This document shows, in pieces, positions 5,038 to 57,659 of a stretch of 64,000 nt of DNA. Location: assembly GCF_024228315.1 (NCBI RefSeq), contig NZ_CP100454.1, positions 930,001 through 994,000 of the forward strand. Reading direction: 5' to 3'. Position 1 is the first letter of the stretch; every line of letters starts with the position of its first letter. Source of the stretch: Halomarina pelagica (GTDB lineage: Archaea > Halobacteriota > Halobacteria > Halobacteriales > Haloarculaceae). Made by a program: the position numbers and the translations under genes. Under the pieces are notes generated by a model. It worked only from the letters and a program-made list of their open reading frames with translations. It did not search any database and was not told the origin of the DNA.

Positions 5038-5565
5038 ATGCTCCGCCTCCCCGACGCGCTGCGCGCCGACCTGAAGGACCCCGTCGGGCCGATCTACACC
5101 GATCCGTCGACCCTCCTCGCCGACGCGGGCGACGGGCCGTTGATCGCCGTCGGCGACGTCGTCACCGAGCACCTGCTCCGCGAGACGGTGCCGGACGTGG
5201 CGCTCGTGGACGGACAGACGAAGCGCACGCCACTCGACGAGCGCGTGGACCTCTCGCCGTTCGACCGCGAGGTGCGCGTCGAGAACCCCGCGGCGACCCT
5301 CTCGCGGGACCTGCTCGTCGCGCTCCGGGAGGGGCTCGCGGGCGGGGAGACCGTCGCCGTCGTCGTCGACGGCGAGGAGGACCTCGCCGCCGTCCCCGCC
5401 ATCGCCGTCGCCCCCCTCGGCGCGACCGTCGTCTACGGCCAGCCCGACGAGGGGATGGTCCTCGTCGTCGTGGACGAGACGGTCCGCGCCGACATGCGGG
5501 AGTTCCTCGGACGGATGGAGGGGGACGTCGTCGCGGCGGAGGCGGCGCTCGGGTTCGAGTCGTAG
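5038..5565 (+). CDS. GTP-dependent dephospho-CoA kinase (DUF359 family)
   Basis: 175 residues, the full family length. The family phosphorylates dephospho-CoA with GTP, the last step of archaeal coenzyme A synthesis. Diagnostic motifs are VGDVVTEHLL (residues 38-47), DGQTKR (58-63) and GQPDEG (134-139). It follows spt4 by 7 bases, the usual haloarchaeal order. Its last 17 codons lie inside a 58-bp sequence that is repeated 1.4 kb downstream, so the 3' end is one boundary of an inserted segment. Confidence 0.88.
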   Translation: MLRLPDALRADLKDPVGPIYTDPSTLLADAGDGPLIAVGDVVTEHLLRETVPDVALVDGQTKRTPLDERVDLSPFDREVRVENPAATLSRDLLVALREGLAGGETVAVVVDGEEDLAAVPAIAVAPLGATVVYGQPDEGMVLVVVDETVRADMREFLGRMEGDVVAAEAALGFES

Positions 5566-5570
5566 TTCGC
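5513..5570 (+). repeat. 58-bp direct repeat, left copy (3' end of the dephospho-CoA kinase gene)
   Basis: Bases 5513-5570 cover the last 17 codons of the kinase gene, its TAG stop and 5 bases beyond. They recur at 6922-6979 with one difference (G against A in the GGCGGCGCTC stretch). The sequence diverges at once outside both ends of the pair. A repeat that rebuilds the end of a housekeeping gene is the pattern left by site-specific integration. Confidence 0.85.
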
Positions 5571-5758
5571 ACCGACGACGCCCGCCAGCGCTGGTCTCGG
5601 TGCATCGTCGCTGTCGAGCCGAAGCCGACGGCGCGCCCAACTAGTTTCGTGACCACGCGCGGTAAGGTGACGAACGCTCCGAGTAGGGGGACGAGAAACC
5701 GATTTTCAGCATACGAGAGGGAGGACTCGGACCGAGAAGAGGGGAGTACCGGACGAAA

Positions 5759-6145
5759 TTAGACGACAGGTTCGACGACGACGTGGTCGTGCTTGAGGCG
5801 AGGAGCTTTCGCCCGACCCTCCTCTACGTACTCGACGACGTCGATGCTGGCGAGCTTCCGGAGATCACGGCTGACCACGCCTTTGTCGTAGCCCAGTTCG
5901 TCGGCGAGCGCGCGAACGGAGCGCGGTTCGTGTTCCTTCAGGTAGTCGAGGATCTCCAGGCGCCGTTCGTGGAAGACACTCTCGGCTCGTTCACGAGCGA
6001 GCACGAGCGTGTCAGGGAACCCGTGCTGAGTCAGCGCCTCCGAGAAGGAACTCCGGAAGTCCAGACGGGGATCCACTTCGGCCTCCTCGAACTCGAACTC
6101 GTTCGGGTCGGGGATCGGGGAGTGCCGGTCCTCGAATTCGGGCAT
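5759..6145 (-). CDS. Winged-helix DNA-binding protein (HVO_A0114/MarR-like)
   Basis: 128 residues. The N-terminal half is acidic (FEFEEAEVDPRLDF). The C-terminal half is a winged helix: LEILDYLKEHEPRSVRALAD, recognition helix GYDKGVVSRDLRKLAS, then a wing with VVEYVEEGRAKAP. Haloarchaeal proteins of this type usually sit beside a small partner gene and resemble antitoxin or autorepressor components. A perfect inverted repeat over its own ribosome-binding region (6157-6172) supports self-repression. The partner is probably the divergent gene at 6468. Confidence 0.75.
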   Translation of the reverse strand: MPEFEDRHSPIPDPNEFEFEEAEVDPRLDFRSSFSEALTQHGFPDTLVLARERAESVFHERRLEILDYLKEHEPRSVRALADELGYDKGVVSRDLRKLASIDVVEYVEEGRAKAPRLKHDHVVVEPVV

Positions 6146-6156
6146 TATTCTGTCCT

Positions 6157-6172
6157 CCTAACCGTTGTTAGG
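6157..6172. promoter_or_regulatory. Inverted repeat overlapping the RBS: probable autoregulatory operator
   Basis: CCTAAC at 6157-6162 and GTTAGG at 6167-6172 form a perfect 6-bp dyad with a 4-base spacer. The dyad ends 11 bases before the regulator ATG at 6145 and merges with its GGAGG ribosome-binding site. A repressor bound here would block its own expression. The DNA upstream is AT-rich and holds the promoters of both divergent genes. Confidence 0.5.
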
Positions 6173-6467
6173 GATGCAACATAGAAAAGCCTTCGGAAGC
6201 TCGGATACTCGATGATCCGGTCCCTGTGCAGAGGAACGTATCGTACAGAAAATGTTAACTTTCGCCATTACTTGACAATAAACGAGATAGCATCCATCAC
6301 GCTTCGCCGAAATTTGAACCTCTCGCCGGGAACGGTCTCCAAGTCGTGAGCCACCGTCCAGAGGGCGCACCGAACTGGTCGTGGCGGCGTAGCAACGGTG
6401 GTGACTCCGACGGTGTACAGACGATGAACGTACCTGGCACGCCCCGAACACGTACTCGAAATCTGTA

Positions 6468-6824
6468 ATGTATAGTTTCGAATCGATCGACCTCGGTACG
6501 TACCGTGGTGACGACTACTTCTTGCTGGGCTTCGTCGAGCCCGAACCGTTCGAGGGCGAAGACTACGACCCCGACGAAGACGCGGAAAACTACGGTGTCA
6601 CGTTGGTGCGAGAGGGGACGTACCCTCTCGAGGAGAACGTCGAGATCGTCCGTATGGACACCGCGCACGGACGACCGCACATGGATCTGGTCTATCTCCC
6701 GGACGACGCCGACGAGGATCGAAAGGTCTGGCTCGAGGACGGGTACACGTACGAACGGATGAAGCGATACCTCCTGGTGCACTGGGAGACGTTCGCTGAT
6801 CGCTACATCCGGTACAACGAGTAG
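6468..6824 (+). CDS. Small acidic haloarchaeal protein, possible partner of the divergent regulator
   Basis: 118 residues beginning MYSFESIDLGTYRGDDYFLL. It is strongly acidic (EPFEGEDYDPDEDAENYGVT) with a conserved-looking core VEIVRMDTAHGRPHMDLVYLP and a basic-aromatic C-terminal helix. I recognise it only as a conserved haloarchaeal type that accompanies HVO_A0114-like regulators, and I give it no family number. Compact size, divergent pairing with a self-regulating winged-helix protein, and placement between direct repeats would fit a toxin-antitoxin-like pair. That role is inference. Confidence 0.6.
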   Translation: MYSFESIDLGTYRGDDYFLLGFVEPEPFEGEDYDPDEDAENYGVTLVREGTYPLEENVEIVRMDTAHGRPHMDLVYLPDDADEDRKVWLEDGYTYERMKRYLLVHWETFADRYIRYNE

Positions 6825-6921
6825 CAGTTCGGGTCGGAAAGATGGGTGTCCGGAGTGCCAACTACGCCGATGCGAAGGGTTCCGAGTCCTCGTGCGCGTC
6901 AGCCCGATCTCGACCTCGCGA

Positions 6922-6979
6922 GGATGGAGGGGGACGTCGTCGCGGCGGAGGCGGCACTCGGGTTCGAGTCGTAGTTCGC
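6922..6979 (+). repeat. 58-bp direct repeat, right copy (detached kinase gene 3' end)
   Basis: This is a second copy of the last codons and stop of the dephospho-CoA kinase gene. It has 57 of 58 bases identical to 5513-5570 and no coding sequence in front of it. It closes the inserted module. Bases 6980-7140 beyond it hold no gene but contain AT-rich promoter-like DNA for the next gene. Confidence 0.85.
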
Positions 6980-7140
6980 GGGAACAGCGGAGGCCGCACG
7001 CGACCTCGTTTCGTAAACAGCGTTACTGTCATCAGCGCAGTACGCTTTTCTATCAGCTATCCCTAATCGCGGGAACGGCGTTCGCCGTCGTCCGCCCGGG
7101 GGCGGTGATCCGGGGGGACACGGTGGCAGCCGCGCTCATC

Positions 7141-7650
7141 ATGGACGAACTCACCGACCCCGAGACGCTGCGCGAACGTGACGACGCCGAGTTCATCGAT
7201 GCCCCCCCGGAAGCGCACCAGGGGCACTTCGAGGTGTACGAGCCCATCGCGGGGATGGCCATCTCGGGCGTCACCGACGCCGACGGTCGACTCCTCCTGC
7301 TCCGGCAGGAGGACGAGCGAATTCCGGTTCTGCCGTACGGTCAGGTGTCTCTCGACGGCGACTGGGTGACGGCCGCCCGCGAAGCGGTGGCCGTCACGAC
7401 CGGCGTCGCGGTTACCATCGACGGGGTGGTCCGGGTCCGCCGCGCCGCCTACCGCTCCGAGACGGGTGCGGAGACGACCGGCTACGACGTGGTGTTTTCG
7501 GCCACGCCGGTGGGCGACCTCGACCTCTCGGATGCGACGGGGTTGAGCTGTCGCCACGAGTGGAGCGCTACGTGGAACGCCCCCGACGCGATCGAGCTTC
7601 CCGACGACGAGGACAACGACGTGGTGAGCGATATTCGGTCGTTCCTCTGA
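7141..7650 (+). CDS. Nudix-fold protein with a degenerate Nudix box
   Basis: 169 residues from the ATG at 7141. The middle resembles a Nudix domain: EPIAGMAISGVTDADGRLLL, then VLPYGQVSLDGDW leading into AREAVAVTTGV (residues 79-89). That segment aligns with the Nudix box, but the paired glutamates of REUXEEXGU are replaced by VT, so classical metal-dependent hydrolysis is doubtful. A C-terminal strand region (HEWSATWNAPDAIELP) follows. It lies between the repeat-bounded module and rps24e, so it may belong to the same accessory insertion. Confidence 0.6.
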   Translation: MDELTDPETLRERDDAEFIDAPPEAHQGHFEVYEPIAGMAISGVTDADGRLLLLRQEDERIPVLPYGQVSLDGDWVTAAREAVAVTTGVAVTIDGVVRVRRAAYRSETGAETTGYDVVFSATPVGDLDLSDATGLSCRHEWSATWNAPDAIELPDDEDNDVVSDIRSFL

Positions 7651-55748: not shown

Positions 55749-57659
55749 TCACGAGCCGTCCATGGAGCGGAGTTCCTCGGGGGTGACGGGCTCTCCGTCG
55801 AGTTCGATCGTGGCGGGGCCGTCGATCTCGAAGTCAGTGACGACGCCCGTGAACCGGTAGGCGTCCCCGCCGCCCGCGAGGACGCCGCGCGCGCTGCCGC
55901 CCTCGATCGCGTCCTCGGTCCCCCAGCGCGAGTCGAAGGTGAGGTGACCGCTGACGGTGAAGTGATACGGCGATACCTCGCCCGACTCGACGAGGAGGTA
56001 GTGCTTCTCGGCCGAATCCGAACCGTCGGACCCGTCGGAGGGGGGATCGTCGGATGCGGGCTCGTCGGGGGTGGAACCGTCGGAAGCAGAGCCGTCAGAG
56101 CCCTCGGAACCACCCATCGAGCGGAGTTCCTCGGGAGTGACGGGCTCTCCGTCGAGTTCGATCGTGGCGGGGCCGTCGATCTCGAAGTCAGTGACGACGC
56201 CCGTGAACCGGTAGGCGTCCGCACCCCCCGCGAGGACGCTACTGACGCTGTCGCCCTCGATCCCGTCCTCGGTCCCCCAGCGCGAGTCGAAGGTGAGGTC
56301 GCCGCTCACGGCGAACCTGTAGGGGGAGGTCTCCTTCGATTCGATGAGCAAGTGATGCTCCTCCGCCGTGCCGGGGTCCTCCGGGGTCTCCGGAGCGTCC
56401 GACGATCCGATCGCGAAGAGGTTACCGTGAGAGAGGGTCGTCCAGCCGAGGAGGCGCTCGTCGCGGACGGGTCGACCCTTCGAGTTGATGGCGTCCTGGT
56501 GCTGCTGGACGTACGTCGGCTCGTTCTTGATCTCGCTACCGCGCGACGTGATCACGTCGAGATACTCGGCCTCCTGCCAGCGCGAGTAGGCGAGTTCGTA
56601 CGCCGACGTCCCCTCCTCGCGCTCGCGGGCAGTGAACCCGTTTCCAGCGCCGTACTTCTCGTCGAAGCGGTCGGGGTTGAGGACGTACTCGACGTACCCG
56701 TCGAACATGCACTTGATCGCAGGCGTGCCGTACTTCTCGTAGCTGTAGAGGTCCTGGCCGTAGTGGCGACCCAGCTCCGCCATCGTGACGTACGCCTTCA
56801 GCGCGAACATCGAGTAGCCGAGGCCGTCGTAGCGCTCGATCTCGTTCGCGAGGAGGCCGTCCTCGCGGAGCTGTACGAAGCCGTCCGCGCGCACGTGCTC
56901 GAACGCCCGCTCGAGCGTGTGCGTGTCGCCGATGTACGCCGCGCCGGCGGCGCGACAGACCTCCCGCCAGATGAAGATGTTCTGGATCCACTCCGGCACG
57001 CCCGTCGGGAGCGTCTCGAGGAACGTCGCGGTCCACTGTTCGAGGTCGGCCTGTGAGCCGACGTCGGAGCCACTCCACGCCGGGTGGTCGCGGACGAGTT
57101 CCGCGCCGTACCACATCTTCGGGATGGTGATGTAGAGTTCGATGCCGTCGGTCACCTTCGGGCGCATCTTGGTCGCGGGGTCGAGAAACCAGTGGTCCAG
57201 AAGCTCGACGGCACGCGCGGCGTACCGATCTTCGCCGGTGAACTGGTAGGCGAGTCCGAGGTCGCGGATCCGGTCGCCCATCTCGATGGCGGCCGTGTAG
57301 TCCCCCCGCGTCCCCGACCCCGGCCCGCCGGTGTCGAAGGTGTGGCTGTTGTCGTTGTCGGTGACGCTGCGGGGCTCGGCCTCGAGCGAGGCGTTCACGT
57401 CCGCGATGAACTCCTCGTACGCGCTCGCCCACGGTTCCGCGCCGGCGTCGACCTGCCGTTTCACCCCGGCCAGTTCGTCCAGGTGCGCGAACAGCGCCGG
57501 CCGACTCTCGCCCGTCGGAAGGCCCGCCGTCGAGGCGGGCCGACCGACCGTGCCCGAGGTGGCCGCCGTGCCGACCGTCGCGCTCGCGGCGGCGGCAGCG
57601 ACCAGTTTCAGATACCCTCGGCGACTCTGGGACCCATAGACTTCGTCGATGTTATCCAT
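55749..57659 (-). CDS. Tat-exported alginate-lyase-family enzyme with twin C-terminal domains
   Basis: 636 residues. Twin-arginine signal (SQSRRGYLKLVAAAAASATV). Residues about 50-400 match the alginate lyase family: LAYQFTGEDRYAARAVELLD, HWFLDPATKMRPKV, WYGAELVRDHPAW and ERYDGLGYSMFALKAYVTMA. The C-terminus holds two near-identical domains of about 80 residues (HLLIESKETSPYRFAVSGDL ... FEIDGPATIELDGEPVTPEE) joined by a Ser/Asp/Gly/Pro linker. The domains probably bind polysaccharide or the cell surface. The substrate, presumably an acidic polysaccharide, is inferred from the family. Confidence 0.83.
   Translation of the reverse strand: MDNIDEVYGSQSRRGYLKLVAAAAASATVGTAATSGTVGRPASTAGLPTGESRPALFAHLDELAGVKRQVDAGAEPWASAYEEFIADVNASLEAEPRSVTDNDNSHTFDTGGPGSGTRGDYTAAIEMGDRIRDLGLAYQFTGEDRYAARAVELLDHWFLDPATKMRPKVTDGIELYITIPKMWYGAELVRDHPAWSGSDVGSQADLEQWTATFLETLPTGVPEWIQNIFIWREVCRAAGAAYIGDTHTLERAFEHVRADGFVQLREDGLLANEIERYDGLGYSMFALKAYVTMAELGRHYGQDLYSYEKYGTPAIKCMFDGYVEYVLNPDRFDEKYGAGNGFTAREREEGTSAYELAYSRWQEAEYLDVITSRGSEIKNEPTYVQQHQDAINSKGRPVRDERLLGWTTLSHGNLFAIGSSDAPETPEDPGTAEEHHLLIESKETSPYRFAVSGDLTFDSRWGTEDGIEGDSVSSVLAGGADAYRFTGVVTDFEIDGPATIELDGEPVTPEELRSMGGSEGSDGSASDGSTPDEPASDDPPSDGSDGSDSAEKHYLLVESGEVSPYHFTVSGHLTFDSRWGTEDAIEGGSARGVLAGGGDAYRFTGVVTDFEIDGPATIELDGEPVTPEELRSMDGS

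Follow-up and report, generated by a model that had tools for sequence, protein, structure and literature searches.

Toxin–Antitoxin Modules and Integrated Elements

TumE-TumA (DUF6516) is an experimentally validated, translation-targeting toxin–antitoxin superfamily, as shown by Durairaj et al. (2023, PMC10584680). A second point of reference is provided by the integrated elements of archaea, which insert at tRNA genes or in the 3′-distal regions of protein genes and rebuild the gene end on insertion: 14 of 68 thaumarchaeal integrated elements occupy 3′-distal regions of protein genes, and their att sites have a median length of 17 bp, while 29–69 bp is quoted for crenarchaeal ones (PMC6563490). 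A third is provided by the toxin–antitoxin gene cassettes of integrons, which are small units found beside unrelated genes and which lack a recombinase of their own.

The locus considered here lies in Halomarina pelagica (GCF_024228315.1, contig NZ_CP100454.1) and was analysed within a stretch of 64,000 nucleotides (positions 930,001–994,000 of the forward strand), which is termed the window and to which the coordinates below refer. It shares with the archaeal integrated elements a rebuilt gene 3′ end, direct repeats at its borders, and a single-copy empty site in relatives; it differs from them in being only 1.4 kb long, in containing a toxin–antitoxin-type pair alone, and in having no integrase. 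Its repeat of 58–66 bp is longer than most thaumarchaeal att sites but within the crenarchaeal range (PMC6563490). We put at roughly 60% the probability that the locus is a horizontally acquired toxin–antitoxin-type module, composed of an HVO_A0114-family antitoxin and autorepressor and a probable toxin, DUF7718, that entered by att-like integration at the 3′ end of a kinase gene.

The Duplicated Gene End

The target gene (5038–5565, plus strand, 175 aa) matches the GTP-dependent dephospho-CoA kinase family (DUF359; PF04019, E = 1.9e-35), and its top NCBIfam matches are models of the same kinase, all under their cut-offs. The last 17 codons of this gene, its stop codon, and the five bases beyond recur downstream on the same strand. 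The 58-bp duplication reported in the initial annotation is confirmed, with 57 of 58 bases identical between 5513–5570 and 6922–6979, and proves to be somewhat longer than stated: an ungapped extension relates 5505–5570 (copy 1, the intact kinase 3′ end and candidate attL) to 6914–6979 (copy 2, an orphan 3′ end and candidate attR) with 62 of 66 bases identical. The copies are spaced 1409 bp apart, and the repeat has an E-value of 6.7e-22 when the window is compared with itself by BLAST. They differ by one silent G to A change and by a block of three bases that reads GAC in the first copy and CGA in the second, such that CTCGGAC in the former corresponds to CTCGCGA in the latter. Homology does not extend significantly farther upstream of copy 2 (p = 0.145), and no inverted repeat was found at the borders of the inserted unit.

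There is no third copy in the genome, where a 101-bp probe matches these two sites alone. The initial annotation had also suggested looking for the same sequence at the ends of integrative elements or plasmids; a 23-base exact core has no match in viral contigs, and the plasmid collection contains no repeat-like DNA. The repeat includes a tRNA T-arm-like sequence, GGGTTCGAGTC, which is a weak lead since GGTTCRANYC is present about ten times in the window. Further strong direct repeats occur in the window at 55760–56014/56114–56368 (86%) and 45353–45452/45683–45789 (83%).

The Regulator and Its Partner

Between the copies lies the inserted unit (5571–6913; 1409 bp, or 1.41 kb, counting one repeat copy), in which two genes are recognised, neither of them a recombinase, in line with the earlier claim that no integrase is present. 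The description of these genes as a winged-helix gene and a divergent small acidic gene also holds. The former (5759–6145, minus strand) encodes a protein of 128 aa that belongs to the HVO_A0114 family (PF25212, 61.6 bits against a curated cut-off of 27.6) and has a predicted ArsR/SmtB-like fold (best Foldseek E = 8e-5). The latter (6468–6824, plus strand) encodes an acidic DUF7718 protein of 118 aa (PF24839, 34.8 bits against a cut-off of 25), which is presumed to be the toxin; all 28 of its aligned homologues match this family at the E-value used, and D64, H71, D73, and W106 are invariant in their alignment. Its AlphaFold model has a pLDDT of 92.9 but no confident structural match, and DUF7718 was not found in phage records.

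The regulator is presumed to act as both antitoxin and autorepressor. An operator-like inverted repeat, CCGTTGTTAGGGATGCAAC, is located directly upstream of its start (6162–6180), and comparison of ten intergenic regions revealed that the GTTG...CAAC core is kept in all ten divergent pairs. This conservation supports autoregulation and the initial description of the gene as self-regulated. The alignment of these ten regions also places a BRE/TATA-like element facing the DUF7718 gene (6246–6262, plus strand), which reads cGAAAnnTTTTAAGT in relatives and is weaker here. A 23-nt inverted match (78%) relates the regulator promoter (6168–6190) to the region upstream of the next gene beyond the unit (7044–7066); it may reflect a promoter or operator element common to both, or chance.

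Conservation of the pair extends across haloarchaea. Almost every DUF7718 locus of the window type has the two genes linked; they are divergent in close relatives and often co-directional in distant ones. The top homologues (84% and 79% protein identity) are in other families, and another (64%) is on a Halobacterium salinarum plasmid, where it is likewise divergent. When 11 divergent modules were compared, DNA homology almost always broke off near the outer stop codons, which indicates that what they share is the gene pair with the region between the genes, in otherwise unrelated surroundings. Upstream of DUF7718, a leader of about 120 nt that is strongly conserved and possibly structured is present in seven relatives (L237, L240, L242, L172, L238, L241, and L239) but not in the window or its two closest relatives; its support from covariation is thin (two pairs), and it has no Rfam match. 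Four DUF7718 modules (L252, L262, L207, and L216) are located at, or close to, the 3′ end of apparent methylase genes of the Eco57I/TaqI-like kind (type IIG or BREX-like), an identity confirmed by Pfam for L252 only; this placement may reflect a hot spot or a functional link.

The assignment of the pair to toxin–antitoxin systems is based on the company that the regulator family keeps. The regulator profile finds a neighbour in 30 of 30 TumE loci examined and in most window-type DUF7718 loci, and the TumE partners tested belong to the same family as the window regulator (PF25212). This association with TumE toxins makes it likely, by analogy, that the regulator and DUF7718 form a toxin–antitoxin-type module, in which DUF7718 probably occupies the place of TumE and works as TumE modules do. 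As in TumE-TumA, two genes make up a module of about 1 kb in which a small toxin-like protein stands beside a DNA-binding partner, this partner being, as in haloarchaeal TumE-TumA, of the HVO_A0114 winged-helix family; unlike TumE-TumA, the pair is divergent rather than an operon, and toxicity is presumed only. Moreover, none of the 28 DUF7718 homologues matches PF20126 (TumE/DUF6516), and the profile-to-profile comparison is weak (hhalign probability 11.8%), so DUF7718 is not classed as TumE.

The Empty Site in Relatives

No DNA resembling the cassette was found in the other seven genomes of the genus, from which the pair is absent. In the closest relative, Halomarina halobia, a single kinase end lies 137 bp ahead of rps24e without the cassette. 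The order kinase, a gene for a 169-aa protein, and rps24e is found in H. rubra, in H. oriensis, and in a third genome, again with one kinase end each and without the cassette. In the window, this 169-aa gene (7141–7650, plus strand; no Pfam or NCBIfam match) follows copy 2 and is regarded as the ancestral neighbour. When copy 1 is fused to the sequence that follows copy 2, the result aligns with the spacer between the kinase and the 169-aa gene of the three relatives, with GGAACAG soon after the stop codon and TTCTATCAG farther on, each of them kept in two of the three and showing one or two changes in the remaining genome. The sequence following copy 1, in contrast, fails to align with this spacer.

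The single copy in relatives and the match of the post-copy-2 sequence to their spacer show that the 1.41-kb segment is an insertion that is accompanied by duplication of the gene end, and the placement of its closest homologues in other families shows its foreign origin. The segment has a GC content of 0.594, compared to 0.742 for the kinase gene and 0.695 for the window. The empty site that the initial annotation proposed to look for is found, and the two observations that it named as fatal to its proposal were not made: the relatives lack the repeat along with the genes, and copy 2 is not part of a longer duplication.

Two statements about the surroundings need to be qualified. The kinase and rps24e were said to be normally continuous in haloarchaea; rps24e does lie within 250 bp of the kinase gene in 25 of 80 haloarchaeal loci, but larger gaps occur in 12, so this continuity is not universal, and in the remaining loci rps24e was not inside the fetched flank. 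The cassette was also said to split these two genes, and it does lie between them; however, the 169-aa gene also intervenes, both in the window and in three relatives from Halomarina, which means that the cassette is not the sole separator. This gene, which is absent from H. halobia and from G002/G003, is patchily distributed between the kinase gene and rps24e across the genus.

Recurrence of the Scar at Other Loci

The same type of scar recurs around related modules. Stretches of 12 kb around 80 DUF7718, 40 TumE, and 40 PIN (VapC) genes and 80 core kinase loci were surveyed for direct repeats flanking the central gene in a unit of at most 1.7 kb. A first repeat count was suggestive only (7/80 versus 11/284 at off-centre positions). 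In the survey, flanked loci numbered 6 of 40 for TumE, 4 of 80 for DUF7718, 1 of 40 for PIN, and none of 80 for the core kinase. With one near-duplicate locus dropped and the window case added, 10 of 121 TumE and DUF7718 modules are flanked, or 9 if the window, selected on account of its scar, is left out. When each locus is instead examined at a different position, about 2 are expected (p < 0.001), and the result was stable under nine settings. Flanking repeats are thus about five times commoner at these modules than at neighbouring positions, while PIN genes are near expectation. The scar is present in about 8% of modules and in none of the closest DUF7718 relatives.

In these cases, the flanking repeat (41 to 267 bp in the loci other than the window) is often the 3′ end of the adjacent protein gene on the upstream side, with the distal copy an orphan. 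At L327, the gene is archaeosortase/exosortase-like, and a second clean empty site exists: in G101, a congener, the gene end stands bare and leads into what comes after copy 2 at L327. At L201, an orphan 3′ end of an ArdC-like gene flanks the module, and at L249, which is a longer unit, as are some further cases, an orphan 3′ end of an epimerase gene does so; the epimerase copies are mosaic and do not cleanly indicate which of them is derived from the element. The orphan copies at other loci have only 52–91% protein identity, which suggests that some may be old segmental duplications.

Two further cases involve TumE. At L321 (5452–7057), a TumE pair lies between a complete tRNA-Gly gene and 44 bp that repeat the 3′ half of this tRNA with 100% identity, in a unit of 1535 bp where no integrase was recognised; judged by its sequence, this arrangement is the classical att picture. 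The other (L350) comes from the genome of the window itself (contig C1, about 1066600–1067900), where a TumE and HVO_A0114 pair occupies a duplicated STAND-NTPase gene end. A broken TumE fragment lies beyond the orphan STAND-NTPase copy (L350, 5194–5285), which is what successive insertions into a single site would be expected to leave. In H. halobia, the pair is missing from this site, and an 85% identical pair is found on a 130-kb contig. Elsewhere, at L206, L226, L245, and L262, tRNA genes occur close to DUF7718 genes and are accompanied by one or two orphan 3′ ends of tRNAs, resembling serial att sites. A literature search, with most subscription journals outside its scope, found no paper on DUF7718 and none on units that contain only toxin–antitoxin genes within duplicated protein-gene ends.

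Possible Mechanisms of Insertion

An important question is how the insertion occurred. A simple explanation is that a circle bearing the pair, along with a segment that matches the kinase 3′ end, underwent a single crossover with that gene end. The product would be an unbroken kinase gene ending in copy 1, followed by the module and then by copy 2 as an orphan 3′ end. The circle could have been a larger element, the rest of which was later deleted, with the pair being retained since its loss would be toxic. Alternatively, the pair could have moved as a circle with toxin–antitoxin genes only, relying on a recombinase, or on homologous recombination, provided in trans. The short distances from the genes to the repeats, which range from tens of bases to about 200 bases in several cases, slightly favour small units, although deletion combined with selection could look alike.

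The att-type integration proposed in the initial annotation is upheld in part, insofar as there is an insertion, a single-copy empty site, and a rebuilt 3′ end; no integrase-bearing element was found at this site. No other element was found within 5.5 kb of the kinase 3′ end in 80 loci, nor was a second element that bears this gene end. The idea that the target would be a protein gene fits the rebuilt end, and the thaumarchaeal elements provide a precedent for it. A comparable scar would also be expected from homologous recombination or from fill-in repair.

Two known classes of mobile DNA were considered and rejected. An insertion sequence or transposon does not fit a unit with no transposase, no inverted repeats at its borders, and a duplication of 58–66 bp here and 41–267 bp in other cases. 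An integron cassette, which like this unit is small, stands beside unrelated genes, and lacks a recombinase of its own, does not fit repeats that are, at different loci, the ends of different genes and mutually dissimilar by inspection; in contrast to integron cassettes, the repeat is a host gene end that differs from locus to locus, and no common attC-like repeat was seen at the loci compared.

Among the alternatives to att-type integration, the least unlikely, which we nevertheless consider improbable, is illegitimate capture of DNA as a break was repaired. The kinase 3′ end would have suffered a staggered double-strand break, both sides of which were filled in, with a plasmid fragment containing the pair ligated between the filled ends, giving a long repeat like a target-site duplication without the need for a recombinase or for a gene end carried by the incoming DNA. 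The lack of a recombinase and of terminal inverted repeats is consistent with this, as are the variable repeat lengths elsewhere and the presence in both copies of bases that are absent in H. halobia, which suggests that both copies could stem from the local gene. However, breaks should fall anywhere, whereas the repeats at L321, L327, L350, and the window end at or just past a gene 3′ end, and the tRNA repeat at L321 is a classical att site. The recurrence of the scar around one functional class of genes, together with this tRNA case, favours an att-type event over the chance repair of a break.

Another alternative, which is more doubtful still, is homologous transfer from a related donor in which the kinase gene was already followed by the pair. 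The fragment, circularised or concatemeric, would have entered by a single crossover through the gene end, making the duplication a product of ordinary homologous recombination. The presence in copy 2 of CCTCGCGA, as in H. halobia and unlike copy 1, suggests that copy 2 may come from another allele. Yet the pair was found beside this kinase gene in no other genome examined, and such a transfer merely shifts the question to the donor. Finally, a local tandem duplication of the kinase end, independent of the module and followed by insertion of the pair between the copies, would explain why these are local and near-identical, but it is very improbable, for it requires two events to have occurred independently at the same position, no relative examined has a bare 58–66 bp tandem duplication, and the association recurs.

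A generalisation of att-type integration, which is tentative at best, is that haloarchaeal TumE and DUF7718 pairs constitute minimal mobile cassettes of about 0.8–1.5 kb that contain toxin–antitoxin genes only, that enter the 3′ ends of arbitrary protein or tRNA genes through recombination supplied in trans, and that carry or duplicate the gene end.

Significance for Haloarchaeal Genomes

The locus links the barely described pair of DUF7718 and an HVO_A0114 regulator to toxin–antitoxin biology, and it belongs to a recurring scar in which the duplicated 3′ end of a protein gene surrounds a unit that consists of such a pair alone. If these pairs are relics held by addiction, they would mark integrated elements that have been lost and would show the effect of an addiction module on genome decay. 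If, instead, the pairs move alone, they would represent an archaeal, integron-like cassette system without a known recombinase.
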